Shown here in pieces: positions 6,482-28,769 of a stretch of 39,252 nt of DNA. The notes beneath the pieces were generated by a model. That model was not told the origin of the DNA. It ran no database searches and saw only the letters and a program-made list of their open reading frames with translations. Source of the DNA: a virus; the IMG/VR virus record IMGVR_UViG_3300035682_000082, positions 1-39,252 of that record; one strand, 5' to 3'. Position numbers and translations under genes: made by a program. Positions within the stretch are counted from its first letter, which is position 1. Every line of letters begins with the position of its first letter.

Positions 6482-6547
6482 CTGAAGTCTCCAAGTTGAT
6501 CCCAATGGGGGGCAACAGCCGGAGTGCTGTCACCCCCCACCGCGACT

Positions 6548-15308: not shown

Positions 15309-16643
15309 TTACCAGCCCGATCCGGGCAGTTGCGATTGGAAGTCTCCTGCGGGCGGAAACGCCATGGCAGGGCCGTTCTCTGGAGAAACATAGGGGTCGT
15401 CTACAATTACGCGCAATCCCGGCGGGGCTTCTGGGACGGCTCCCTGTACCCGATCCCAGCCGTGTAGCGCCAGCGCCACGGCCATCACGCCGTCGTCATG
15501 GAACCCGCTCGGGGCCTCATAGCGGACGCCGGTGGCCGTATACGTAAACTCAAACGCCTCCATCTCGCTGGTCAGCCAGCGGGCATCGTCGGCATCAGGC
15601 AACGTCAGTTCCTTGCCTTGGAACGCCGCCACCAGCCGCTGCATCAACCGGAGCTTGGACGATTGGGTGAACACATGAGGCGTGACGTTGACCCCCATGA
15701 CTTGCAGATCAGCCACGATGGCATCGCCCACACCGGTCGCGTCAGCCACAATCGGCGTGTCTTCGACCTTGGCCTTGATCTTGGCCTTCGTAATGGCCCA
15801 CGGGGCCTGCCAGCGGTCTAGGAAAGCCACTCGGCGGTAGGCGTCGAACCCCACCAGCACGGTAAAGTCCATGGATCGGGCCAAGTCCACGCCGTAGACC
15901 ACCACGGGCTGGTCCGACAGCGGCCCAAGGCTGGCACGGATCGCCTCCAGACCGAACGGGTTTGCGCCATCGTCCGTGGGGATGCCTTCAAATTCTTGGG
16001 CAAACACTTCGGGTGGCAACTCTTTTCGGGCCGCTTCGACTTCTTCGGCGGGGATGTACGGGTTTTCCAGCGTCGAGGCCCGAAAGCTGGCCCAATCTGG
16101 GTCTTCGCCCAATCCACGGTTAAACAGCACCACAAACCCGTGTCGGCGGCCCTTTGGCGTGCCTAATATCAGCGCCCGACCCTTCAAATCGACCAGTGTG
16201 GGACGGATGGCGGCTTGCCAGACTTCCAGCAAATCACGGGCAATACCCGCCTCGTCAATCACCACCAGCGCATATTTGCGGCCTCGGGCGGCATCTGGGG
16301 TGTCCAGCGTCCAGACTTCGATGATCCCACCCGTCACCAGTTCCAACCGCTTGTCCTGCTCGTTCATCCGCGCTGTAATGGGCGCCAGCCGCTCCACCAA
16401 CTCCCGCCATGCTTCTAGCGCCAGCTTGTAGGTGGGCGCAAACCAGCCTACGGGCTGTCCTGCAATCGCCACATCGCTGGCTTCCCGAATCCCACAGGCC
16501 GACTTCCCCCACCGTCTCCCGCACATGACCACCCTAAACCGCGCAGGGTGAACGGCGATCTTCGCCTGACCGGGGTGGCGCTTATGGAGGCGAACCTCCA
16601 CCTCCGTTGCGCCAGATTTATGCTTTCCACGTACAGACGCCAC
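15309..16643 (-). CDS. terL: Terminase large subunit
   Basis: A 444-aa protein starting at GTG (16643) behind GAGGG. The ATPase has Walker A CGRRWGKS at 41-48 and Walker B ALVVIDEAG at 125-133 (D130, E131), with ILGTPKGR at 159-166 as coupling motif. The C-terminal nuclease has an RNase H-like set of acidic residues: D253 (GVDLARS), D301 (ADATGVGD) and D383-D384 (FHDDGV). This is the motor and nuclease that packages concatemeric DNA. terS lies directly upstream, separated by the 8-bp repeat region that supplies its Shine-Dalgarno and start codon. Confidence 0.93.
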   Translation of the reverse strand: MASVRGKHKSGATEVEVRLHKRHPGQAKIAVHPARFRVVMCGRRWGKSACGIREASDVAIAGQPVGWFAPTYKLALEAWRELVERLAPITARMNEQDKRLELVTGGIIEVWTLDTPDAARGRKYALVVIDEAGIARDLLEVWQAAIRPTLVDLKGRALILGTPKGRRHGFVVLFNRGLGEDPDWASFRASTLENPYIPAEEVEAARKELPPEVFAQEFEGIPTDDGANPFGLEAIRASLGPLSDQPVVVYGVDLARSMDFTVLVGFDAYRRVAFLDRWQAPWAITKAKIKAKVEDTPIVADATGVGDAIVADLQVMGVNVTPHVFTQSSKLRLMQRLVAAFQGKELTLPDADDARWLTSEMEAFEFTYTATGVRYEAPSGFHDDGVMAVALALHGWDRVQGAVPEAPPGLRVIVDDPYVSPENGPAMAFPPAGDFQSQLPGSGW

Positions 16644-16738
16644 TCGTTCCCTCGTTAACTCGTTAACTCGTTTACTCGTTTACGCAGCTACTCGTTTACT
16701 CGTTGACGAGTTTACTCGTTCACTCGTTCACGTTTACT
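16643..16738. repeat. Phased 8-bp tandem repeat in the terS-terL gap
   Basis: CTCGTT occurs nine times, starting at 16643, 16651, 16659, 16667, 16675, 16691, 16699, 16715 and 16723. All steps are exact multiples of 8, and the missing positions (16683, 16707) hold degenerate units. The full unit is close to CTCGTTTA (AACGAGTW on the transcribed strand). The last unit overlaps the terL GTG, and a variant unit gives its GAGGG ribosome site. It could be a packaging (pac) or TerS-binding site, or a plain slippage array. Confidence 0.9.
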
Positions 16739-16764
16739 ACGTTCACTAATAACTAGTACCGTTA

Positions 16765-16807
16765 GGGTGACTACGTAGTCAGGGGTGACACTGGAGTCAC
16801 CCCCCTG
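16765..16807. promoter_or_regulatory. Palindrome and hairpin at the end of terS
   Basis: TGACTACGTAGTCA at 16768-16781 is a perfect 14-bp palindrome. It adjoins an 8-bp stem (GGGGTGAC at 16782-16789 with GTCACCCC at 16796-16803, loop ACTGGA) that includes the terS stop codon. No T-tract follows in either direction, so an ordinary intrinsic terminator is unlikely. An mRNA hairpin, a protein-binding site or part of the packaging site are the options. Similar words occur at 29886-29950. Confidence 0.6.
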
Positions 16808-17348
16808 AGGGTAGCGCAAAGAAAGCTGGTCCACTGACCACGGCGCTAACCAAGGCATCCTTCCCCGCTGCATTCAGCGCCATCACATTTCTGACCGGCG
16901 CATCATCTTCCACAATCTTCACCGATAACGTCTGCGCGCCTTGGTGTTCCACCGTCTGCTTCTCCCCATACTCCACGGGATTCGCTTTGGCTGCGGCCCA
17001 CTTCAGCGTTTCAATCAGCACCCGATCCATCGCTGTGGTGCTACTCGTACTCTCCCGCGCTACCAAGATCGCTTCCTCGGCAAACGCCTGTCCGAGCATC
17101 GTCTTGGTCCGTTGGTATCGCTGAAACCACGCTTCCTCCGCCACAATCCAGCGCCGAACTAGCCCTGCCGTCAGTGGCTCACCCAGCGCCGACGATACAG
17201 CCTTGACCGTCTCCGAGAGCGTATGACCCTCTGCCATGCCCTCCAGCACCCGCTCCACCACCGCCACCCGCTCCTCCTCCTCCCACTCCCCCCGCTTACT
17301 CCGCTTCTCGACCCCTTGCACGTCCATCCCACGAATCTTGCCCCCCAT
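16797..17348 (-). CDS. terS: Terminase small subunit
   Basis: A 183-aa protein. I chose the ATG at 17348 because AAAGGAG lies five bases before it; a longer reading to 17423 has no such site. Residues 15-60 are acidic/helical (EEEERVAVVERVLEGMAEG), then an HTH-like segment (TLSETVKAVSSALGEPLTAGLVRRWI). The middle has the TerS pattern MDRVLIETLKWAAAKANPVEYGEKQTVEHQG. The small subunit recognises the packaging site and stimulates the large subunit. The gene opens the late leftward block and is followed by the repeat array described above. Confidence 0.8.
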   Translation of the reverse strand: MGGKIRGMDVQGVEKRSKRGEWEEEERVAVVERVLEGMAEGHTLSETVKAVSSALGEPLTAGLVRRWIVAEEAWFQRYQRTKTMLGQAFAEEAILVARESTSSTTAMDRVLIETLKWAAAKANPVEYGEKQTVEHQGAQTLSVKIVEDDAPVRNVMALNAAGKDALVSAVVSGPAFFALPSGG

Positions 17349-17364
17349 GCTAACTCCTTTGCTG

Positions 17365-17760
17365 GTGTTGACACAGCAACGTAGCCCTTTTGTTTTTTTT
17401 GCGCCAGTACCCACCCGTGTCAAAACGACACACTCGCACCCTATGGCTCCCGTTGACTTGTACCGTGCAACGGCTGACCGTGGAGGGGTGGTACCACGTT
17501 CGCCACTGCCGCTGGCGGGGTATACCCCTCACCCCTGAGACTCTCAGCCCTGAGAGAACGCGCAACCCGTTGCAGCGTCAGCACTTAGCCCACTTGCCAG
17601 CGTTGCCAGCGCCAGCGCTCGAACGCCAGCGCTGCCCCGTCTGGGCTGCTGGCTGGCCCCTGCTGCCCGTTGCCAGCGCTGGCAGGGCGTGGGCGTGGGG
17701 CGTGGGGCTGCTGCTGGCCCTGCCCACTACGGGCCAGCGTGGGGTGTGTCACTTTGACAC
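17365..17760. promoter_or_regulatory. Three GTGT(C)-(G)ACAC dyads upstream of terS
   Basis: GTGTTGACAC at 17365-17374, GTGTCAAAACGACAC at 17417-17431 and GTGTCACTTTGACAC at 17746-17760 share the arms GTGT and ACAC. The third has perfect 6-bp arms and a 3-bp spacer. On the minus strand the second contains TTGACA, but I find no good -10 at the usual distance. They may be operators of the late promoter, which I could not place with confidence. Confidence 0.4.
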
Positions 17761-18010
17761 GCTATAGATCGCGCGCGGGGGCGTGGGCACTGACACTTAG
17801 GGAAGCTGTCCCCAAACTGAGCAGCGTTGCCAGCGCCCCCAGCAGCAGCAGCGCCCCAGCGCCCCCAGCGTTCGAGCGTTGCCAGTCCAGCGCCCCAGCG
17901 TTGCCAGCCCCAGCGTCCCCCGTTGCATCGGCTGGCGGTGGGTGGGCTGGCAATACCTTAGCGCTAAGGGGTGTCAGTCCAGCGCCCCAGTGCCTTAGCG
18001 CTAAGGGTAT
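17571..18010. repeat. GC-rich CCAGCGTTGCCAGCG-type array, left flank
   Basis: This gene-free stretch is built from variants of CCAGCG, TTGCCAGCG and CCCCAGCG in many phases. No reading frame in it has a Shine-Dalgarno or plausible composition. Its complement (CGCTGGCAACG) fills the region to the right of the AAA+ cassette (20795-21225), so the two arrays are in inverted orientation. The segment near 17600-17635 resembles the complement of 20752-20780, sharing GTTCGAGCGCTGGC. Confidence 0.75.
17956..18006. promoter_or_regulatory. Twin 14-bp palindromes
   Basis: CCTTAGCGCTAAGG, a perfect 14-bp palindrome, occurs at 17956-17969 and again at 17993-18006, that is 37 bp apart start to start. The two copies stand in GC-rich filler and are not in a gene. 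Two identical dyads at this distance suggest a pair of dimer-binding sites. The factor is unknown. Confidence 0.6.
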
Positions 18011-18058
18011 TTCCAGCGCTTCCCCCTGCTGCCCAGTCCCTGCCCCTACATGAACGCC

Positions 18059-18093
18059 AGTTCATGAACTGCCCAAAAACTGGGGGCAGTTTT
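18059..18093. promoter_or_regulatory. Palindrome plus hairpin with GGGG loop
   Basis: AGTTCATGAACT at 18059-18070 is a perfect 12-bp palindrome. Eight bases away, AAAACTG at 18076-18082 pairs with CAGTTTT at 18087-18093 around GGGG. As RNA the second could act as a weak terminator for rightward transcription. Its T-tail is short, so a regulatory site is equally possible. Confidence 0.4.
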
Positions 18094-18101
18094 GAGAGCA
18101 G

Positions 18102-18192
18102 ATTTGTGATATAGGCAATTTCCCCGAATGAACGCCGAAACAGAGGCAATGTCACAAATATTTGTGATATTTCGCCATCAGATTTGTGATAT
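18102..18192. promoter_or_regulatory. Three ATTTGTGATAT sites and a 16-bp palindrome
   Basis: ATTTGTGATAT occurs at 18102-18112, 18160-18170 and 18182-18192, all in one orientation. The middle copy is half of the perfect palindrome TCACAAATATTTGTGA at 18152-18167. This is the most AT-rich part of a GC-rich region and lies between divergent transcription units. Repressor operators or origin iterons are the main possibilities. Confidence 0.6.
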
Positions 18193-18364
18193 TTCGCCCT
18201 TTTTCCAAAAAGTGAAATTCCCCCCAGATCGACGAACGGGGTGATGTCAATGGCTCTGTACGGGGGAGGGGGGTAAACGCGTTAGAATCGATTTCGCTTT
18301 CGGGATTTAATCGGGCCAGTTTGGCGCTGGTTTGCCAGTGATTTCCACTGCTTTCGTTGACTGA

Positions 18365-18394
18365 TTCGAACACTGAAAAGCGCCCCTATATAAT
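18365..18394 (+). promoter_or_regulatory. Candidate rightward promoter
   Basis: A perfect TATAAT stands at 18389-18394. At 18-bp distance the -35 would be TTCGAA (18365-18370), a weak match; TTGACT at 18357 is too far. A second candidate is TTGACA at 18447-18452 with TACCTT after 17 bp. Either could drive the AAA+ cassette starting at 18528. Confidence 0.4.
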
Positions 18395-18527
18395 GAGAGT
18401 CAGGGGCTGGGCTGTTGTCCCTTGTATTTTGCCCCCTGCCCTACCGTTGACATTGCACACGCCAGCCGATACCTTGACAGTCCAGTACCGTTGGAACCCG
18501 CAAGACAACCCCCGCCAGAGGAACCCT

Positions 18528-19904
18528 ATGTCTACCCCGTTGCCCCGTACCCCGTTAACTGGCACCGTTGGCATTGTGTCAGGGCGAAGACTGAAGCTGG
18601 GCAGTGATTACCAAATCACGCCCATCACGATGCTTCATACAGATTCAGCAGCAACCCGACAGAAGCTGGCCGACAATGGATATAAGGGGGACACTTCTCG
18701 GCTGCACATTGATATATCGAACGTGCTAATCCCTGCCGATAGCTGGGGTATCGTCGTCGATTGTGAGCATTACTACGGTACCCTTGAAATCATTTTCGTA
18801 TTTCAACGGGGGAAGGAATCAGTAGCCGTTCACCTAGCAAAGCTGCCAGCCGAAAAAATCATCACCAGCCGTGGCGCGCCCCCGATGGTAGGGGAGAATT
18901 ATCCGGCCCCGAAAGCTGCCCCCAGCGCTACCCCTGCCCCCGTCCAGTCCCCCACCCCAGCCCCCGCCGCTATGTCCCCCGCCACTGCTGCCCCCGTTGC
19001 CTCCGGTTTCGACGCCCTGATCGCTGGCGTTGTTTCCCAGCTTGTCGAAACTCGGATTTCAGAATTAGAGGCGAAAGTTGCCAGCGCTGCTGCCCCTGCT
19101 GGCCCGTCAGTCGTTCACGTCCAGATCAATCAAGCTGAACCCCGTCCCCTTTCTGCTGCCCGTTCCCACGCCATGTTGGGCAAGCTGTTGCCCCTGCTGG
19201 GGGCTGTCAGCCCTGCCACTGGCAAACGGTTAAACGTTATGCTGGTGGGGCCTGCTGGCACTGGCAAGACGACGCTGGCGTCTCAAGCTGCTGAGGCGTT
19301 CGGGGTGCCTTTTGGTACGGTCAATGGCTCTGCTGGGCTGACGGAAGGGCGGTTACTGGGCACGATGACGCCGAACCTTTCAACGGGGGAGCAAGTCTAC
19401 GCCCCGTCTCAGCTAGTGCGCTGCTATCGTGACGGGGGCGTCTATCTCATGGACGAAATCGACGCCATGGATGAAAACGTCATGTTGAGCGTGAACAATC
19501 TGGTAGACTCTACCAAGTGGCAAGCGCCTGACGGCCAGTGGGTTGCCCGTCATTCTGATTTCTATCTGTTGAGCGCTGCTAATACGTTCGGGCTGGGGGC
19601 AAACCGTTTGTACTCTGGACGGACTCAACTGGACGCGTCGTCTGTTGATCGCTGGTTTCAGGTTGAAGTGGGCTATGATCTGGCCCTTGAGCGTTCGCTG
19701 TGCGTCACGTCGGCGATTGTAGACCGCATCCATGCAGCCCGTGAAGTACTGGCCCAGCGTCCCCAGATTCGGCGCTGGCTGACGATGCGGGGGCTGCTGA
19801 CGGCTGATCTGCTGGTCAACCAATGTGCCTACACGGTGCCCGAAGCGCTCAAGGCCATTACGCAAAGCTGGACGACGGAAGATCGTCAGGCGTGCGGACT
19901 ATGA
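18528..19904 (+). CDS. MoxR/CobS-type AAA+ ATPase
   Basis: A 458-aa protein. I chose the ATG at 18528 because AGAGGA lies just upstream; a frame open from 18357 lacks a site. Residues 1-125 form an unknown N-domain. Residues 126-160 are an Ala/Pro linker. From about 205 there is an AAA+ core: Walker A GPAGTGKT at 241-248, Walker B VYLMDEID at 305-312 and sensor-1 Asn352 (SAANTFG), with possible arginine fingers at R361 or R375. The motif order is that of the MoxR/CobS group (chaperone-like ATPases that work with vWA partners). It overlaps the next gene by ATGA, which suggests a paired product. Confidence 0.8.
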   Translation: MSTPLPRTPLTGTVGIVSGRRLKLGSDYQITPITMLHTDSAATRQKLADNGYKGDTSRLHIDISNVLIPADSWGIVVDCEHYYGTLEIIFVFQRGKESVAVHLAKLPAEKIITSRGAPPMVGENYPAPKAAPSATPAPVQSPTPAPAAMSPATAAPVASGFDALIAGVVSQLVETRISELEAKVASAAAPAGPSVVHVQINQAEPRPLSAARSHAMLGKLLPLLGAVSPATGKRLNVMLVGPAGTGKTTLASQAAEAFGVPFGTVNGSAGLTEGRLLGTMTPNLSTGEQVYAPSQLVRCYRDGGVYLMDEIDAMDENVMLSVNNLVDSTKWQAPDGQWVARHSDFYLLSAANTFGLGANRLYSGRTQLDASSVDRWFQVEVGYDLALERSLCVTSAIVDRIHAAREVLAQRPQIRRWLTMRGLLTADLLVNQCAYTVPEALKAITQSWTTEDRQACGL

Positions 19905-20794
19905 TTACTCAAGAGACTGGCAAGGGAATGACGGTACTACGGGTACCGTCCCCTCTGGACCTTCCTACGCTGCTGACGGGGGACCAAGTGCCCCCCGTCA
20001 ACGCCCAGAAATTTGACGGACTACGGGGGAACTGGTCCGGCATTCATACGGGCTGGCAGTGGGGCGACGTGGCCAGCCTAGACGACGTTAAGGCACTGTT
20101 TGCGGCTGGCTGGGACGCTGGGGCTGAGAAAGCACGGGGGGCCATTGCGGCCCTGCCGCTGGCTGACCTGACGCCTGAAGCGCTGGTTATGCGTCGCCGC
20201 CGCGTCTACCGTGACGCTGGCGACACGGTGCGCGTGGAATCGGCGTTAGCTGGGGACTGGGATCGTGCATTCGAAGGACGGGCCAAGCGCTTGTCGTCTG
20301 CCCCTGCTGCCCTCTCTATCGCTTGCGCTTTCGGCGCTTGCGGGGGGACCAGTCACGATGACTTTTTTTGGACGGGCGTCCAAATGGCTTGCCTAACTGA
20401 CCTTCTTGAAGGGCAGGGCTGGCGTGTCGAACTACGGGCAGTCAAAGCGAACGAAATGGGCAGCGCTGGTACGCACATTCAGGATATCACGGTTAAGCTG
20501 GCTGATCAGCCCATGCGCGATGACGCGGTTATGGCCCTCTTCGGTCACGCTGGCGTGTACCGCGTCTACGGCTGGGCAGGGAACTACCATACGTCGATCA
20601 AAGTGCCCTACGGCATGGGCACTGTCCTGACGGGGCACGATCTGACGGCAGCCGTTGCTAAAGCTGCTGACGCTGGCATGGTCCACCCCGTTAGCCTGAT
20701 CGTGCCGCAAGCGTACAGCCGCTACGCTGCCATCGCGAACCTACGGGCAGCGCTGGCCAGCGTTCGAGCGCTGGCAACGGGGGCAGCAGCGTAG
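19901..20794 (+). CDS. Coupled partner of the AAA+ ATPase, possibly a vWA-like protein without metal site
   Basis: A 297-aa protein whose ATG overlaps the ATPase stop (ATGA at 19901-19904). The N-terminal half is of mixed type with a basic MRRRRVYRD. The core, about residues 130-200, reads LSIACAFGACGGTSHDDFF, then a helix (WTGVQMACLTDLLEGQG) and a strand (WRVELRAV). This order of strand, loop, long helix and strand is that of vWA domains, but the usual DxSxS metal site is absent (AFGACGGTS instead). MoxR ATPases commonly pair with vWA proteins, so a degenerate vWA partner is a reasonable inference. I also recall phage proteins of the DUF7192 type next to such ATPases, but I could not check. 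Confidence 0.6.
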   Translation: MITQETGKGMTVLRVPSPLDLPTLLTGDQVPPVNAQKFDGLRGNWSGIHTGWQWGDVASLDDVKALFAAGWDAGAEKARGAIAALPLADLTPEALVMRRRRVYRDAGDTVRVESALAGDWDRAFEGRAKRLSSAPAALSIACAFGACGGTSHDDFFWTGVQMACLTDLLEGQGWRVELRAVKANEMGSAGTHIQDITVKLADQPMRDDAVMALFGHAGVYRVYGWAGNYHTSIKVPYGMGTVLTGHDLTAAVAKAADAGMVHPVSLIVPQAYSRYAAIANLRAALASVRALATGAAA

Positions 20795-21225
20795 GGGCTG
20801 GGCAGGGCTGGCAAGCGCTGCCAGCGTAGCAAACCGACAAACGGGGGCCAGCCTAGCAAGCTGCCCCCGTTCTGGCGTCTACGGGGCTGCTACGGGCCAT
20901 TACGGGCCAGCGTGTGTAACGCTGGCAAGCTGCTTCAACCCTGCCACTGGCAACGGCTGGCGCTGCTGCTGCTGGCAACGCTGGACGCTGGCAACGGCTG
21001 GGGCTGGCAAGCTGTCCCACTGGCAACGCTGCCCAGTGCCAGCCAGCAGGGCCAGCGTAGGGGCTGGCAAGCTGCCCACGCTGGCAAGCTGGGGACGCTG
21101 GCAGGGCAGGGGCAACGGCTGGCAAGCGTTGGCACTGGCAAACGACTAACCCGTTGACTGGCAACGTGTTAACGCTGGCAACGGGTAGCGCTGGCAAGCG
21201 CTGGCCAACGCTGGCAAGCGCCCGA
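20795..21225. repeat. GC-rich GCTGGCAACG-type array, right flank
   Basis: About sixteen copies of TGGCAA, mostly as GCTGGCAACG or GCTGGCAAGC, stand in this gene-free stretch. Frames that cross it on either strand have low-complexity composition and no ribosome sites. It is the inverted counterpart of the array at 17571-18010. The repeat theme already begins in the last codons of the preceding gene, in the segment around 20752-20780. Confidence 0.75.
20840..20871 (+). terminator. Hairpin after the AAA+ cassette
   Basis: AACGGGGGC at 20840-20848 pairs with GCCCCCGTT at 20863-20871. Three more pairs (AGC with GCT) extend the stem inside, after a one-base bulge. It starts 45 bases after the stop of the partner gene. 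The following bases are only TT, so termination may be weak or need help. Confidence 0.45.
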
Positions 21226-21300
21226 AAAGCGCGGGAACCCGACGCCGGGGGACCACCCAGACAGCCTCCGTCATATATCCCCGACCTATCCGCTATACCC

Positions 21301-21425
21301 CCTACTAAGGCGTCTCCGCGCAGGTGCGCCCGCGTATACCCGCGTAGGCCCCTACTAGGGCGTCTCCGCGAGCGGGTGCCCGCGAACGTCCTACTAGGTG
21401 ATCTCCGCGAGCGGGCGAACGGACG
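21301..21425. repeat. Three direct repeats with inner hairpins
   Basis: The block CCTACTA-G-x-x-(G/A)-TCTCCGCG starts at 21301, 21351 and 21390. The second and third copies continue alike (AGCGGG and a later CGAACG). Between them lie small inverted arms, for example GCGGG and CCCGC around 21372-21383. No gene covers them. They stand about 25-150 bp upstream of the promoter at 21449 and may bind a regulator or mark an origin. Confidence 0.65.
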
Positions 21426-21448
21426 GGAAACTTTCGTGAAGATTGCTG

Positions 21449-21477
21449 TTGACATTAGCGGGGCGTGTTTGTATTGT
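21449..21477 (+). promoter_or_regulatory. Sigma-70-like promoter for the DUF3846-like gene
   Basis: TTGACA at 21449-21454 is followed after 17 bp by TATTGT at 21472-21477, four of six matches to the -10 consensus. The next ATG is at 21526. The three direct repeats lie directly upstream, suggesting control. Confidence 0.6.
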
Positions 21478-21525
21478 TGACTCAAGCCGCACGACGTTCT
21501 TTCTAAACCACTAGCCCTACCCGCC

Positions 21526-21927
21526 ATGCCTAACGCTTTCCGCATCACCAGCCAGACCGCCGAAGCAGTCCAGATTCCCCTCGGTTTGAAATCACTTCAG
21601 AAAGAAGTGGGGGGATATATCGAAGCGGCATTTACGGTGCCGTCTCCCGATGGCGGGAGCCGTTTCGTGACGGGATACGTCAATGAGGAAGGGCTGCTGC
21701 TGGGCCTCCCGATGTGCCTCATTACGGCTGACGGAGGCTCCTACAGTGGCCCGTGCATCATCGTAGGGCTGGATTACAGCACGGGCGACACGGTGCCGCT
21801 GTCGGCTACCGAACTGGCTTGGGTGTCTGAAAACTGTGGGCTGGTTATGGAAATGACCCCCGCAGGGCTGGACACGATGCGCGTCTGGGGACTGGATTTG
21901 ACCTCCGCTAAGGAGGTGGCAGCATGA
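21526..21927 (+). CDS. DUF3846-like protein
   Basis: A 133-aa protein. It has a pattern I connect with the DUF3846 family of phage and actinobacterial proteins: LKSLQKEVGGYIEAAF, then a strand, then VNEEGLLLGLPMC, then an acidic C-terminal part with strands. Function of the family is unknown; many members belong to phages or mobile elements. It lies between the AAA+ pair and a small helical protein in the only rightward unit. A second promoter stands between it and the next gene. The stop overlaps ATGAGC, which would give only a six-codon frame, not called. Confidence 0.65.
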   Translation: MPNAFRITSQTAEAVQIPLGLKSLQKEVGGYIEAAFTVPSPDGGSRFVTGYVNEEGLLLGLPMCLITADGGSYSGPCIIVGLDYSTGDTVPLSATELAWVSENCGLVMEMTPAGLDTMRVWGLDLTSAKEVAA

Positions 21928-21953
21928 GCGCCAACATAAATTAGGCTCTATTG

Positions 21954-21984
21954 TTGACACCTGGGACCACGCACCACATATTAA
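21954..21984 (+). promoter_or_regulatory. Candidate promoter for the 88-aa gene
   Basis: A consensus TTGACA stands at 21954-21959, in the same setting (TTG-TTGACA) as the one at 21449. The best -10 is TATTAA at 21979-21984, with a long 19-bp spacer. The gene starts 40 bases downstream. Confidence 0.4.
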
Positions 21985-22023
21985 CGGCTCAACCGCACCA
22001 CACCAACGCCAACAGGAGAAGCC

Positions 22024-22290
22024 ATGAACGCCAAAGACCGCAAGGCCGTCGCCAGCATCATTTCCAAGCTGGAAGGCATGAAGGCCGAGATGGAAGAACT
22101 GTCGTCCACGCTCAACGACATTGCAGACGCCGCGCAGGAGGCGTATGACAGCATGACCGAGAAGGCGCAAGAATCTGATCGCGGCACTGCACTGGCAGAG
22201 TCAACGCACTGCCTCGCGGATGCTGCTAGCGCGTGTGACAGCGGAAACGTGGACGAAGCGCTTGGCGCCCTTGGCAACTTAGAGAGCTAA
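22024..22290 (+). CDS. Small helical protein, unknown
   Basis: An 88-aa protein behind a good AGGAG. It is almost all helical: residues 5-65 form one or two amphipathic helices (ISKLEGMKAEMEELSSTLNDIADAAQ), followed by Cys-containing Ala/Ser-rich and acidic turns. Small proteins of this kind (coiled-coil, Ala-rich, Asp/Glu-rich end) are common in phage accessory blocks. It is the last gene before the convergent terminator at 22391. No function assigned. Confidence 0.65.
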   Translation: MNAKDRKAVASIISKLEGMKAEMEELSSTLNDIADAAQEAYDSMTEKAQESDRGTALAESTHCLADAASACDSGNVDEALGALGNLES

Positions 22291-22311
22291 TCTCGCCATT
22301 GCGGGGGAAGT

Positions 22312-22379
22312 CCACACTTCGTACATTCTTTGCTAGACATTCCTTGGCGGGGGTGTCATCGGATAAACCCGAAGTGTGG
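22312..22379 (+). ncRNA. Candidate structured RNA in the 3' region
   Basis: CCACACTTCG at 22312-22321 pairs perfectly over 10 bp with CGAAGTGTGG at 22370-22379. Inside, GACA (near 22336) can pair with TGTC (near 22354). The intrinsic terminator follows 12 bases later. This fits a small RNA or structured 3' UTR ending at that terminator. No known RNA family is recognised. Confidence 0.35.
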
Positions 22380-22390
22380 GCAACAGAAAA

Positions 22391-22420
22391 CCCCCTGATA
22401 CTCAGTATCGGGGGGCTTTT
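22391..22420. terminator. Bidirectional intrinsic terminator
   Basis: CCCCCTGATAC at 22391-22401 pairs with GTATCGGGGGG at 22405-22415 (one T-G pair, loop TCA). CTTTTTG follows to the right, and the complement has GGTTTTCTG to the left. It separates the rightward block from the end of the leftward early block (stop at 22423). Confidence 0.85.
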
Positions 22421-23079: not shown

Positions 23080-23282
23080 GGCTGCACCCCCATCGCGGCG
23101 GAGCGAGGATAGATCAGCACATCCACGTTGCTCTCGTTCTCGGGGTCGATGCGGATTCCGGCGACTTGGATGCCCTCCGCGATCCATTGCGGGATGACCG
23201 CGTTAAGCGAAACCGCCCGAACGTAGGCACCGCTTTTGCCGCTGTCAAACCCGTCGCGCCAGAAGATCAGCGGGGCACTCAC
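23076..23282 (-). CDS. 68-aa protein, unknown
   Basis: Starts at GTG (23282), overlapping the stop of the gene upstream (GTGA), and ends overlapping the GTG of the gene downstream. The sequence is mixed: an N-terminal FWRDGFDSGKSGAYVRAVSLNAVIPQW, then a strand IQVAGIRIDPENESNVDVLIY. The coupling on both sides suggests that it is expressed. No family is recognised; the C-terminal strand pattern could be a small alpha/beta domain. Confidence 0.55.
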   Translation of the reverse strand: MSAPLIFWRDGFDSGKSGAYVRAVSLNAVIPQWIAEGIQVAGIRIDPENESNVDVLIYPRSAAMGVQP

Positions 23283-23836
23283 GGCTGCACCGCCAGCGCC
23301 CGTTCATCCGTGACCGCCACCAGCCGCCGCAGCAGCCCCACGGGGTCGATGGTCGTCCATGCGTATTCGGATGCGTCTGCGTCTGCGTCTGCGTATGCGG
23401 CTGCGTCTGCGTATGCGGATGCGGATGCGTATGCGGCTGCGTATGCGTCTGCGTCTGCGGATGCGGCTGCGTATGCGGCTGCGGCTGCGTCTGCGGCTCT
23501 CGGCTGCACAAGTGCCAGCGCTTCCCACATCCACGCCATGACCAGCGCCAGCCGCTTTGCCTCACGCTCGCGCCCGGTGCCCGCCGACAGCACCAGCAGA
23601 TCGCGCCATGCTCGGCTGTCGCGAATCGTCGCTGGCATGCGGTCTTGCACGCGAATAATCCAGCGCCCGATCACGCGGCTCATGCAGTCGGGCACGGCGT
23701 CTGTCAATGTGCCCGTAAGCGCGAGATTAAGCGCAGCGACGCTGCACGCCTTCTCTTTCGTGCCGATACCTACGGCCAGCGTCGGCATCGTCGCCAGCAC
23801 GTCGCGGATTGCGGTTTCCTGCTCGGTGGTAATCAC
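23279..23836 (-). CDS. Phage protein with Ala-X dipeptide repeats
   Basis: A 185-aa protein. The N-terminal 120 residues are an alpha-helical domain with several conserved-looking aromatic and Arg residues (GRWIIRVQDRM, AWRDLLVLSAGTGREREAKRLALVMAWMWEAL). About residues 115-160 are an Ala-X repeat (X is Tyr, Ser, Asp or Ala) coded by 23 hexamers. The C-terminus returns to normal sequence (WTTIDPVGLLRRLVAV). The repeat keeps the frame open. Similar Ala-Tyr/Asp-rich repeats occur in other phage proteins near Ea22-like genes. Function unknown. Confidence 0.65.
   Translation of the reverse strand: MITTEQETAIRDVLATMPTLAVGIGTKEKACSVAALNLALTGTLTDAVPDCMSRVIGRWIIRVQDRMPATIRDSRAWRDLLVLSAGTGREREAKRLALVMAWMWEALALVQPRAADAAAAAYAAASADADAYAAAYASASAYADAAAYADADADASEYAWTTIDPVGLLRRLVAVTDERALAVQP
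23361..23498. repeat. Hexanucleotide tandem repeat, 23 units
   Basis: Units of GCG(T/G)(A/C)T, with one TCGGAT, run without a break over 138 bp inside the 185-aa gene. Because the unit is 6 bp, gain or loss of units keeps the frame and alters only the length of the Ala-X stretch. The variants are not arranged in a simple order, so repeated unequal exchange or slippage followed by mutation is likely. Confidence 0.95.
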
Positions 23837-24719: not shown

Positions 24720-24817
24720 GGCCCTTCACCCCGCCACACCCTCCGTGCCCGTCGCACCACCGCTGCCGCTGCTGACAACAGCAGCAGGACAGCGGCGATG
24801 CGTTCTAGTGTGGTCAT
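24716..24817 (-). CDS. 33-aa membrane protein
   Basis: Read directly. The ATG at 24817-24815 overlaps the stop of the 62-aa gene (ATGA), and its TGA (24716-24718) overlaps the GTG of the gene downstream. The product is MTTLERIAAVLLLLSAAAA, then VVRRARRVW and a short end. The hydrophobic segment at about residues 7-21 followed by Arg is a single membrane helix with its basic end on the inside. Small membrane peptides are common in phage early regions. Its short length limits certainty, but the overlaps on both sides favour expression. Confidence 0.45.
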   Translation of the reverse strand: MTTLERIAAVLLLLSAAAAVVRRARRVWRGEGP

Positions 24818-25341: not shown

Positions 25342-26220
25342 TTATTTTTCCCAAAGAGGAATAACACTAGATAGCTTTTTGGCAATCTCTTTGTACGCCT
25401 TTTCATCAACGACACGCACGGTCACGGACGGGTGGTACTTTGCCATGCGCTTGAGCTTCGTGGCGCTTTTCTTGTCCATCCACCCTTTTACTTCCTCGTA
25501 CCACACGCTGCCATCTATGCCGTACACCTTGAAGTCTGGCGTGTACGAACGCACCCCGCGCCGTATCTTCTCAAACCAGAACGTGTCTACCTCAAACTCC
25601 CACCGGAGGATGTGCCCTTGCGCGATCAGCAGATTGAGATACCGCGCATAGTTCGCTTCCCACCGAGATCGAAAAAAGATTCTGCCAAGGTCGTCTCGAT
25701 ATCCACGCTTGGCGTGAGAGTAAATGGAGTTTGGCGCGAATTTCACGCGCTCAATTAATCGTCGTGATGCGGCGGTAAGCTGCTTCTGTGTCTTCTTCTT
25801 CTGGAAATGGTGCGTACCGTCCTGCACTCGCTGACGTTCACGACGGCTCTGCTCTGCACAGAACTCAGCACTGTGCTTTTTGCCAAGCATACCCCTCGCG
25901 TGTTGCTGCTCCCCGGATGCCAGCCGCTCGGCGTATGCTTTCCCGCGCTTCTTGGCAACTTCAGGGCTTGCCTTGACGATCTTCCCTTCCAGCCAATTCT
26001 TTTTCATCACTGCACTCTGGTCGTGCAGCCTTGCCTTCCCTGCACGAACCCACTTGACGTTGTTCCTATACGCCCACATCACAAGGCCGCGAAACGAGAA
26101 CGGAGGGCCAAGCATATCGGCGCATAGTGTCGGCCCAAAATCTCCGTAGTGTTCACGCAACCACTGCGTAACTTCTGGTGAGTATGTGGCCTTACTCTGT
26201 TGCTTCTCTTCTTCAGTAAT
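25342..26220 (-). CDS. PD-(D/E)XK nuclease with NUMOD3-like motif
   Basis: The frame has no ATG near its beginning. I propose ATT at 26220 as the start, as GGAGG stands close before it and the extension completes an HTH-like N-terminus (TYSPEVTQWLREHYGDFGPTLCA). A conservative start is TTG at 26160 (272 aa), which has no ribosome site. By numbering from that TTG, a NUMOD3-like motif lies at 87-110 (HARGMLGKKHSAEFCAEQSR). The nuclease core has E168 (SRWEANYARYL), D209 (TPDF) and E222-E223-x-K225 (YEEVKG), the PD-(D/E)XK pattern. NUMOD3 is known from homing endonucleases. A free-standing mobile endonuclease is a good inference. Confidence 0.7.
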   Translation of the reverse strand: MTEEEKQQSKATYSPEVTQWLREHYGDFGPTLCADMLGPPFSFRGLVMWAYRNNVKWVRAGKARLHDQSAVMKKNWLEGKIVKASPEVAKKRGKAYAERLASGEQQHARGMLGKKHSAEFCAEQSRRERQRVQDGTHHFQKKKTQKQLTAASRRLIERVKFAPNSIYSHAKRGYRDDLGRIFFRSRWEANYARYLNLLIAQGHILRWEFEVDTFWFEKIRRGVRSYTPDFKVYGIDGSVWYEEVKGWMDKKSATKLKRMAKYHPSVTVRVVDEKAYKEIAKKLSSVIPLWEK

Positions 26221-26334
26221 ACCGCCTCCGTGTGTTTAAGTGTACACGGCTACAGTACAGTCAATTAAAGTCTCGCGCAATCCCTAAGTTCAAATCTCTT
26301 GCGATTGTCAGAGCAGAGGGCGGTCCACGGGACA

Positions 26335-27018
26335 CTAAACGTGAGAGTGGTCATCTGTCTTTTGTGGGTAGCTGAGAACCTTATACGTCAACGCTTTACG
26401 AAAGGCGCGTTTTTGCCGTCTGTCACCAACAAATGTTATGTAGCGATGCTTCGGAGACCGTTCGACAAAATACACGTTCTCTTCGCCGAACTTGTCAACG
26501 ACTTGTTGGTTTGTCAGACCATGCGCGTATGTGGCGTGGTGTTGATGCTCTAACCCTCTGACGCGAGGGTCTCTGAACTTTGACGACATCCCCGTATACA
26601 AAAAGTTTGTTGCTTGATAGACGATGCCAGTGTGTTCCTGTGCGGTGTCGGCATATGACACAATGATCTTTGGCGCTGGCAACAAGCGCAGCGATGCGCC
26701 AACTAGCCGGCTGGCTTCATTCTTGTTGTTGTTCTCAAGCACCAGTCTGTTTAACTCCAGCACACTGCTCTGCCACTCATCTCCACACACGCCACGGCAC
26801 AGCGTTGAACTGGCTGGTGTCCCATACGTTACCGCACCGACAAGTCGCTCATCAAAAAACAACCCGTATGCGTAGCTGATAGACGGGACTCTTTTGGCGT
26901 AGTGAATAGCGTGAATCAAGTAATAGGCATCTGTTGGCTCTATTGGCTGCACCTCATACCCAAGAGAGTTCCCAAAAAGGAGACTCTCTTGGATAGCCAT
27001 AGATTTGTACTTTGCCAT
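26335..27018 (-). CDS. Mom-like DNA modification protein
   Basis: A 227-aa protein whose ATG overlaps the stop of the primase-helicase (TGATG). It has the pattern I know from Mom-type proteins (GNAT-like enzymes; phage Mu Mom modifies adenines in DNA so that they resist restriction). Visible segments: HYAKRVPSISYAYGLFFDERLVGAVTYGTPAS (given in part), VLELNRLVLENN, then IIVSYADTAQEHTGIVYQATNFLYTGMSS. The Glu-Leu-Asn-Arg segment and the SYADT segment are the most typical. A position beside replication genes suits modification of new phage DNA. A plain acetyltransferase is the alternative. The 114 bases downstream hold no gene. Confidence 0.75.
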   Translation of the reverse strand: MAKYKSMAIQESLLFGNSLGYEVQPIEPTDAYYLIHAIHYAKRVPSISYAYGLFFDERLVGAVTYGTPASSTLCRGVCGDEWQSSVLELNRLVLENNNKNEASRLVGASLRLLPAPKIIVSYADTAQEHTGIVYQATNFLYTGMSSKFRDPRVRGLEHQHHATYAHGLTNQQVVDKFGEENVYFVERSPKHRYITFVGDRRQKRAFRKALTYKVLSYPQKTDDHSHV

Positions 27019-28769
27019 CAATGTCTCTCCTTCCAGCGGGGCAGCATCGGGCCATGCTTCTCTTCCGCTTCACGGATACTGACCGTGCGTTGTGTCAAGC
27101 GCAGGGTGCGGAAGTCCCACTGCACGGGGATGTCACACATCCCGCCAATGCGATTTTTGTCAACGATCAACCAAGTGTCCGCGAGATTCCCGGCGCGGGT
27201 GAAGCGTGAGTGATCAAAGAGCAGTACTTGGTGGCTGTCGTTCTCAATCGCACTGCCGCCCATCAGCCCCTGACTAATCGGACGCTCTGCCCTGTTTGCG
27301 GAGGTCTGTCGGTTGAACTGTGAGAGCGTCACCATCCGCACGTTCAGGCGCTGTGCCAACTCACGCAACTCATGCGAGACGGCTTCAATGCGGTCGTGGA
27401 TATTGCTCACGTTGGATACGCTGGCAAGCTGTAGGTAGTCAATCACGAAGTAACTGCTTCCACTGACCTCGGCGTGATGCTTAATGCAAGCCGACACATC
27501 CGACATCTTGGACAAGGGACGGCGGTTGACTAACACATGGCCCCCCGTCCGCTCGCGAATCTCGTTCAGTGTTCGTGCGGCTCGCTTGTAGGCATCTTGG
27601 CTGAAGGCTGGGCCTTGCTCCAACAGTGACACCGACTCACCACTGACCACCGACATCAAGCGGGTAGCGAGTTCGCTGCGCCCCATCTCTAGCGAGACAA
27701 AGGTGACTGTCTCCCCATGTTCAATAGCGCGAGCAGCCATGTTGATGCCAATCAGCGACTTGCCAGTTCCTGTGTTCGCGCCAATCGTAATCAGCCAACT
27801 CTTTGCCAGCCCTATCGCACCACCACTGGACCCGCACACCTTGTTCCACTGGTCTAGTGGTGTCGGGACGGCATCAACAGGGGCCAGCTTCTCGTCCAGC
27901 ATCTGATCCAGCGTGTCGCCCGTGATGCTGTCAAACGCCACGGCTGGTGGCTCGGCACCGATAGGCGTGGTGGTGGCGATGATCCCCTGCCACACCGTCG
28001 CCCAGTCGTCCCCGTGTGACTGCACCGACTGGTGCAAATCGCACAGGTCTTTGACAATCTGCTCACGGTGTCTGACATCGCGGAGGATGCGGGCCTTGGG
28101 CAAGCTCGCAGAGATCGCGGCCACCATCGTCGCCCCGCCCTCGTCAGGCTCCTGCCACACGATGACCTCACGGCCTGACAACAGGCTGGCATACTCTGGC
28201 TTCCACTGGCTTGCGCCGGGGAGACCAACGACCGTCACGCCACGCTGCCAGCCTGCATGACAGTCAGACTCCCCCTCTACAATCAGCACAGGGCCAGCAG
28301 GGGATGCAGCCAGCACATCCTGCCCGTAGAGGGGCGTGCCTTCCCCGTCACGGTCCCAGAACGTCCCTTTGCGGGTCCGACACTTGGTGCGGATGGTGCT
28401 GCCATCAGCGCGGCGGTAGGGGATCGCCACGATGGCATCCCCGTACTTGCCGGTTCTCTCCTCGACGCCAGCCTTTGCCAGTCCTGCCAGCGCCAGCCCC
28501 TTCCGCTCGGCGTACTCGGCCAGCGTCAGCCCAGACGGGGCCGCCTCATCAGGCAGGGTGACCCCCAGCGCCTCGCCAAGGGTCGCCAGTGGCTCCGTGA
28601 AGCCACAGGCGCTGCAACCCCATGCGTGGTCCCCCAGCCATGCGGATGAGGTGCTGTCGGTGTGGCGAACGCACCGGAAGGCAATCGCTTTCCCGCTCTT
28701 CTTCGCGCCATACCTCCCTCGCAACAGGGCAGACTTCAGCACGCCATGCGCGTCGAGGGTATTCACCAC
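27018..28769 (-). CDS. Primase-helicase, DnaB-like with TOPRIM
   Basis: A 583-aa protein starting at GTG (28769). A zinc finger of CHC2 type is at C33-x2-H36 and C52-x2-C55. A TOPRIM-like part has VLIVEGESD at 161-169 and WQEPDEGG at 205-212. The helicase part has Walker A GANTGTGKS at 330-338, Walker B FVIDYLQL at 441-448 and a sensor region TLSQFNRQ at 481-488. The architecture parallels T7 gp4. It would unwind DNA and prime at the replication fork. No DNA polymerase gene is visible, so it would need to work with a host polymerase. Confidence 0.88.
   Translation of the reverse strand: MVNTLDAHGVLKSALLRGRYGAKKSGKAIAFRCVRHTDSTSSAWLGDHAWGCSACGFTEPLATLGEALGVTLPDEAAPSGLTLAEYAERKGLALAGLAKAGVEERTGKYGDAIVAIPYRRADGSTIRTKCRTRKGTFWDRDGEGTPLYGQDVLAASPAGPVLIVEGESDCHAGWQRGVTVVGLPGASQWKPEYASLLSGREVIVWQEPDEGGATMVAAISASLPKARILRDVRHREQIVKDLCDLHQSVQSHGDDWATVWQGIIATTTPIGAEPPAVAFDSITGDTLDQMLDEKLAPVDAVPTPLDQWNKVCGSSGGAIGLAKSWLITIGANTGTGKSLIGINMAARAIEHGETVTFVSLEMGRSELATRLMSVVSGESVSLLEQGPAFSQDAYKRAARTLNEIRERTGGHVLVNRRPLSKMSDVSACIKHHAEVSGSSYFVIDYLQLASVSNVSNIHDRIEAVSHELRELAQRLNVRMVTLSQFNRQTSANRAERPISQGLMGGSAIENDSHQVLLFDHSRFTRAGNLADTWLIVDKNRIGGMCDIPVQWDFRTLRLTQRTVSIREAEEKHGPMLPRWKERH

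Follow-up and report, generated by a model that had tools for sequence, protein, structure and literature searches.

The window analyzed here, the whole 39,252-nucleotide stretch of virus record IMGVR_UViG_3300035682_000082, encodes a 227-aa protein that belongs to the Mom family by every testable feature. With high confidence, we propose that this protein modifies adenines in the phage DNA and thereby protects the genome against restriction by the host, its chemistry, substrate and protective role being deduced by analogy with phage Mu. Mom of Mu attaches a bulky group to adenines, and bacterial restriction enzymes then fail to cut the phage DNA. The protein is an additional member of an already known family: Mom-type genes have been described in many phages, and this copy resides in a replication operon without the control system of Mu. 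The record of 39252 bases contains genes for terminase, portal, major head protein, endolysin and holin, together with the replication genes encoding a replication initiation protein, an exonuclease and a primase-helicase, and thus represents a tailed phage. The features around the mom-like gene are as follows.

26335..27018, minus strand: mom-like gene, 227 aa, GNAT fold (sequence, profile and structure model)
27018..28769, minus strand: primase/DnaB-type replicative helicase gene, directly upstream of the mom-like gene
27016..27020, minus strand: TGATG, shared by the primase-helicase stop codon and the mom start codon (read from the sequence; coupling inferred)
27027..27032, minus strand: Shine-Dalgarno-like AAGGAG, 8 nt upstream of the mom start codon and within the end of the helicase gene
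26957..26995, minus strand: mRNA hairpin in mom codons 8-21, speculative as a control element
25342..26160, minus strand: gene for a DUF1064/Holliday-junction-resolvase-like nuclease, downstream of mom; functional link unsupported

Sequence and structure model assign the protein to the Mom family

The open frame of 227 codons starts with ATG at 27018 and its stop codon ends at 26335. The Pfam profile Mom (PF25680; curated cut-off, 27.1 bits) matched the translated protein from profile position 2 to 201 of 202 with 130.9 bits (E 6.3e-38). The protein also matched PHROG 1384, annotated as 'Mom-like DNA modification protein' (5.3e-52), and the crystal structure of Mu Mom, PDB 8bv8, was retrieved by sequence (4.1e-11). 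Relatives were found in 158 records of annotated phages, at 69 loci in viral contigs, where identity reached 72%, in a single plasmid record and on 7 bacterial genome contigs, which are mostly short and come from metagenome bins. An AlphaFold2 model built from 42 sequences (mean pLDDT 84) superimposed on 8bv8_A over 187 residues with a Z score of 19.6 and an rmsd of 3.7, and Foldseek likewise matched the model to 8bv8 (E 6.7e-12), while the next-best GNAT structure reached Z 13.1. As judged from the model, the closest structural match is Mu Mom, far above other GNATs.

We counted residue conservation over 65 homologues including Mu Mom. The title of PDB 8bv8 refers to an 'inactive mutant S124A', and the change is visible as NSEARAIS in the 8bv8 chain versus NSESRAIS in the Mu genome. 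This Ser124 of Mu in 8bv8 numbering (Ser114 in a shorter numbering) aligns with Ser103 here, and serine occupies the position in 65/65 homologues. Mu Mom His48, Tyr49, Arg101 and Tyr149, which work by Karambelkar and colleagues in 2020 reportedly placed in the functional set, correspond to His39, Tyr40, Arg91 and Tyr134, each likewise kept in 65/65. Arg43, Glu88, Gln135 and Asn138 are also invariant across the 65 homologues, Mu Mom among them.

The original prediction of a Mom-type GNAT-like protein at 26335-27018 is borne out, as profile, fold and the conserved Mu positions agree, and none of the results contradicts a modified adenine in the phage DNA. It had pointed to ELNRLVL (residues 88-94) and SYADTAQEH (residues 121-129) as typical of Mom. 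Both segments are present and contain family motifs, with E88, L89, R91 and G131 in this area invariant in the 65 homologues, S121 found in 63/65 and A123 in 64/65. The second segment does not hold throughout: position D124 is glutamate in 11 homologues and position H129 is arginine in Mu.

The gene is maintained for its protein product. When the mom-like gene was compared with five relatives, identity was about 0.74 at the first, 0.81 at the second and 0.36 at the third codon position, and 79-93 identical residues per pair were encoded by different codons. Because of these patterns, we conclude from the sequence comparison that the gene is under strong purifying selection.

The mom-like gene is embedded in a replication operon

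The primase-helicase gene was said to adjoin the mom-like gene, and it indeed lies directly upstream. The TGATG overlap between the two genes makes translational coupling of mom to the primase-helicase likely, and from its position the mom-like gene is likely expressed together with the replication proteins. A consensus scan found no promoter directly upstream of mom. Among relatives, the upstream neighbour is on the same strand at 41/45 loci, often with a 4-base overlap. The neighbours include primases, polymerase-primases, helicases, replication initiators and N6/N4 methyltransferases, each family being present at few loci.

This arrangement differs from that of Mu, in which mom belongs to a late operon and its start is overlapped by com, encoding a zinc-ribbon regulator; here the overlapping upstream gene encodes the primase-helicase, and no com was found. 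A profile search of the window for the Com domain PF10122 gave no match, and no pairs of C-x2-C...C-x2-C at a spacing of 8-25 residues were found in any frame of the window. For this possibly incomplete 39-kb record, these searches agree with the earlier remark that no Com-like regulator is visible.

The hairpin in codons 8-21 has a predicted stability of -24.3 kcal/mol in 45 nt, ranks among the strongest in the less GC-rich segments of the genome, and includes CUCCUU, the complement of the AAGGAG site. Speculatively, it could tune mom expression. Conservation of such a 5′ hairpin was sought in the relatives and was not seen, although in two of them (L013 and L047) a strong hairpin lies close to the start.

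Probable horizontal spread of the mom-like gene among otherwise unrelated phages

We compared the 36 other genes of the window with the flanks of close relatives (L004-L026), whose Mom proteins are 62-72% identical, and obtained no match at E 1e-5 within flanks of up to 6 kb, beyond which more distant shared genes could escape. Weak helicase or exonuclease matches occurred in the flanks of only a few other relatives. The method does detect shared genes, because nearly all locus pairs with Mom identity above 80% share another nearby gene; at 60-70% identity, the share falls to about 1/9. Furthermore, the mom-like gene has the lowest GC content of the 37 genes (0.493; mean 0.585, sd 0.038). The lack of shared flanking genes and the low GC content indicate that the mom-like gene spreads horizontally as an accessory gene or mobile cassette, as also described for the Mom-like gene of Bacillus podoviruses (PMC9965433). 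Long direct repeats flanking mom were not found; the repeats of only 11-12 nt around the gene are explicable by chance. In Bacillus phage Thornton, repeats of 21 bp are described as flanking the Mom-like gene (PMC9965433).

The protein is a direct member of PHROG 1384, which includes phages of Proteus, Listeria, Enterococcus, Bacillus and Mycobacterium as well as other phages, and is about 40% identical to the Proteus and Listeria versions. Com is likewise unannotated in the four neighbourhoods of this group that were examined. What distinguishes this clade from the other members is the GLEHQHHATYAHG segment, and its nearest sequences come from contigs of uncultured viruses, with identities of up to 72%. 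Among annotated phages, the closest protein is gp22 of Roseobacter phage CRP-902 with 50% identity, whose gene is also part of a tightly overlapping operon, two genes past a DNA helicase. However, gp22 is annotated only as hypothetical, and no other gene of the window matched within the surrounding 16.6 kb. CRP-902 (L086) carries a SAM-dependent DNA methyltransferase in addition to the Mom relative, and the four SASNY palindromes are absent from its genome (0 observed versus about 50 expected).

Palindrome avoidance is consistent with restriction pressure

Palindromes of 6 bp are scarce in the whole genome, with 152 observed versus 542 expected from shorter words (ratio 0.28). The corresponding ratios are 0.65 in lambda, 0.59 in T7, 0.35 in a spring-water podovirus and 0.24-0.99 in other Mom-carrying contigs. 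Many palindromes, such as CTGCAG, CAGCTG, CCGCGG, TGCGCA and GTCGAC, are absent though 10-17 copies are expected. This avoidance fits strong host restriction, under which mom would have a plausible benefit.

The target consensus of Mu Mom is SASNY. The window contains 2541 such sites on both strands, equal to 15.8% of adenines, which follows largely from composition and carries no evidential weight; a figure of about 15% of adenines modified is cited in PMC9965433. Four palindromes of 6 bp include the Mu-type SASNY; together they occur once versus about 35 expected, so that relief of these palindromes from avoidance, as a trace of Mom, was not seen in this genome. In the pooled Mom-carrying contigs, such relief was slight, with a ratio of 0.78 for SASNY palindromes versus 0.68 for other A-containing palindromes. 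SASNY palindromes are also depleted in T7 (5 versus 24), which is not known to encode Mom. Recent acquisition of mom, another specificity, or avoidance persisting from the past would each explain the missing relief.

The region 16000-22400 shows much weaker avoidance (60 palindromes observed versus 102 expected), and the ratio falls to 0.20 when 16.0-22.4 kb is left out. It has plus-strand genes, whereas most of the genome is coded on the minus strand, and two of its parts (about 17.4-18.3 kb and 20.8-21.5 kb) lack clear genes and are rich in repeats (GTTGCCAGCG / CGCTGGCAAC). The region may have been imported recently, or different DNAs may have been joined here.

Proposed function and alternatives

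We propose that the mom product, as a GNAT-fold enzyme of the Mom family, modifies adenines of the phage DNA. By analogy, the added group would most likely be of the Mu Mom type, a methylcarbamoyl at N6 derived from an acetyl-CoA-type donor; a review describes the Mom reaction as adenine methylcarbamoylation using acetyl-CoA (PMC11340752). The modified genome would then be shielded from host restriction enzymes, again as in Mu. Through translational coupling with the replication proteins, new DNA would be modified while it is copied, whereas Mu expresses mom late and in dependence on Com. The distribution of relatives suggests that mom passes horizontally between unrelated phages as an accessory gene. 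Should the predicted modification occur, this small gene alone would provide the phage with broad restriction resistance, and the finding of such genes in many environmental phages without close kinship suggests that the counter-defence extends far beyond the Mu system from which it is known.

From the sequence data, the protein very likely works like Mu Mom. It resembles Mu Mom (8bv8, PF25680) in the fold over nearly the whole length, the inactivation-sensitive serine, the His-Tyr, Arg and Tyr positions, and length; it differs in overall identity, about 27-31%, and in many residues invariant in its clade. Mu Mom is accordingly a distant relative on a very long branch, and S70, G76, C78, G79, H129 and K190, which are nearly invariant in this clade, differ in Mu. 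With such differences, the enzyme could depart from Mu Mom in donor, chemistry or target sequence. A Mom-fold DNA enzyme with another donor group, target base or sequence is possible though somewhat unlikely, and overlaps with our preferred explanation, which itself keeps the target sequence open. Besides the distance from Mu and the divergent residue block, the segment SKFxDPxVxGLEHQHHATYAHGLTN, highly conserved in this clade and replaced in others, and the continued avoidance of SASNY palindromes speak for such a difference, whereas the invariance of the Mu positions, the inactivation-sensitive serine among them, with Mu Mom as top structural match, speaks for Mu-like activity. Action on RNA, protein or a small molecule instead of DNA is conceivable in view of the very large GNAT superfamily and the many GNAT structures with the same alpha/beta fold that match the model at Z 11-13. 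Yet Mu Mom stands 6 Z units above the rest and covers nearly the whole protein, and sequence families assign the protein to Mom, not to generic acetyltransferases, so that we regard a non-DNA substrate as very unlikely. A decayed, functionless passenger gene is the least credible reading of all: the lowest GC content among the 37 genes suggests a foreign origin, but the frame is intact, the ribosome-binding site is strong, the key residues are kept and purifying selection is strong.

The nuclease gene 174 bp downstream on the same strand raises the question of a restriction-modification-like pair, in which Mom would protect and the DUF1064/resolvase-type nuclease would cut unmodified DNA. Such a pairing has been proposed for the Mom-nuclease fusions of jumbo phages (PMC7824862), which share the Mom catalytic domain; here, in contrast, Mom stands alone, the nuclease is encoded by a separate downstream gene and their pairing is unsupported. 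A VRR nuclease gene overlaps mom in Roseobacter phage CRP-902. Across the relatives, however, the neighbours are mixed: RusA accounts for 3/116 and PD-(D/E)XK for 2/116 neighbour proteins, DUF1064 is outside the 25 commonest neighbour families, and resolvases are ordinary members of replication modules. These neighbour counts do not support a conserved nuclease partner of Mom, and we consider the pair hardly probable.

Turning back to the Mom-family enzyme that modifies adenines, a more elaborate version of this proposal would be a Com-independent Mom branch that travels as a cassette in replication operons, modifies DNA at the time of replication, has its own specificity through the GLEHQHHATYAHG segment and, in this phage, is limited in expression by the anti-Shine-Dalgarno hairpin; we hold this combination to be rather doubtful.

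Other features of the window

The frame of the DUF1064 nuclease extends upstream of the listed TTG (26161-26230, minus strand), where GGAGG precedes an in-frame ATT (CACACGGAGGCGGTATTACTGAAG), suggesting that this gene may use an unusual ATT start. At 23279-23836 (minus strand), a protein with long repeat runs of the A-Y-A-D-A-S type is encoded, and the opposite strand reads as RMRLR repeats. Very stable hairpins of about -32 kcal/mol in 45 nt were detected at 6499-6543 and 24754-24798; on the minus strand, the former follows shortly after the gene for the major head protein.
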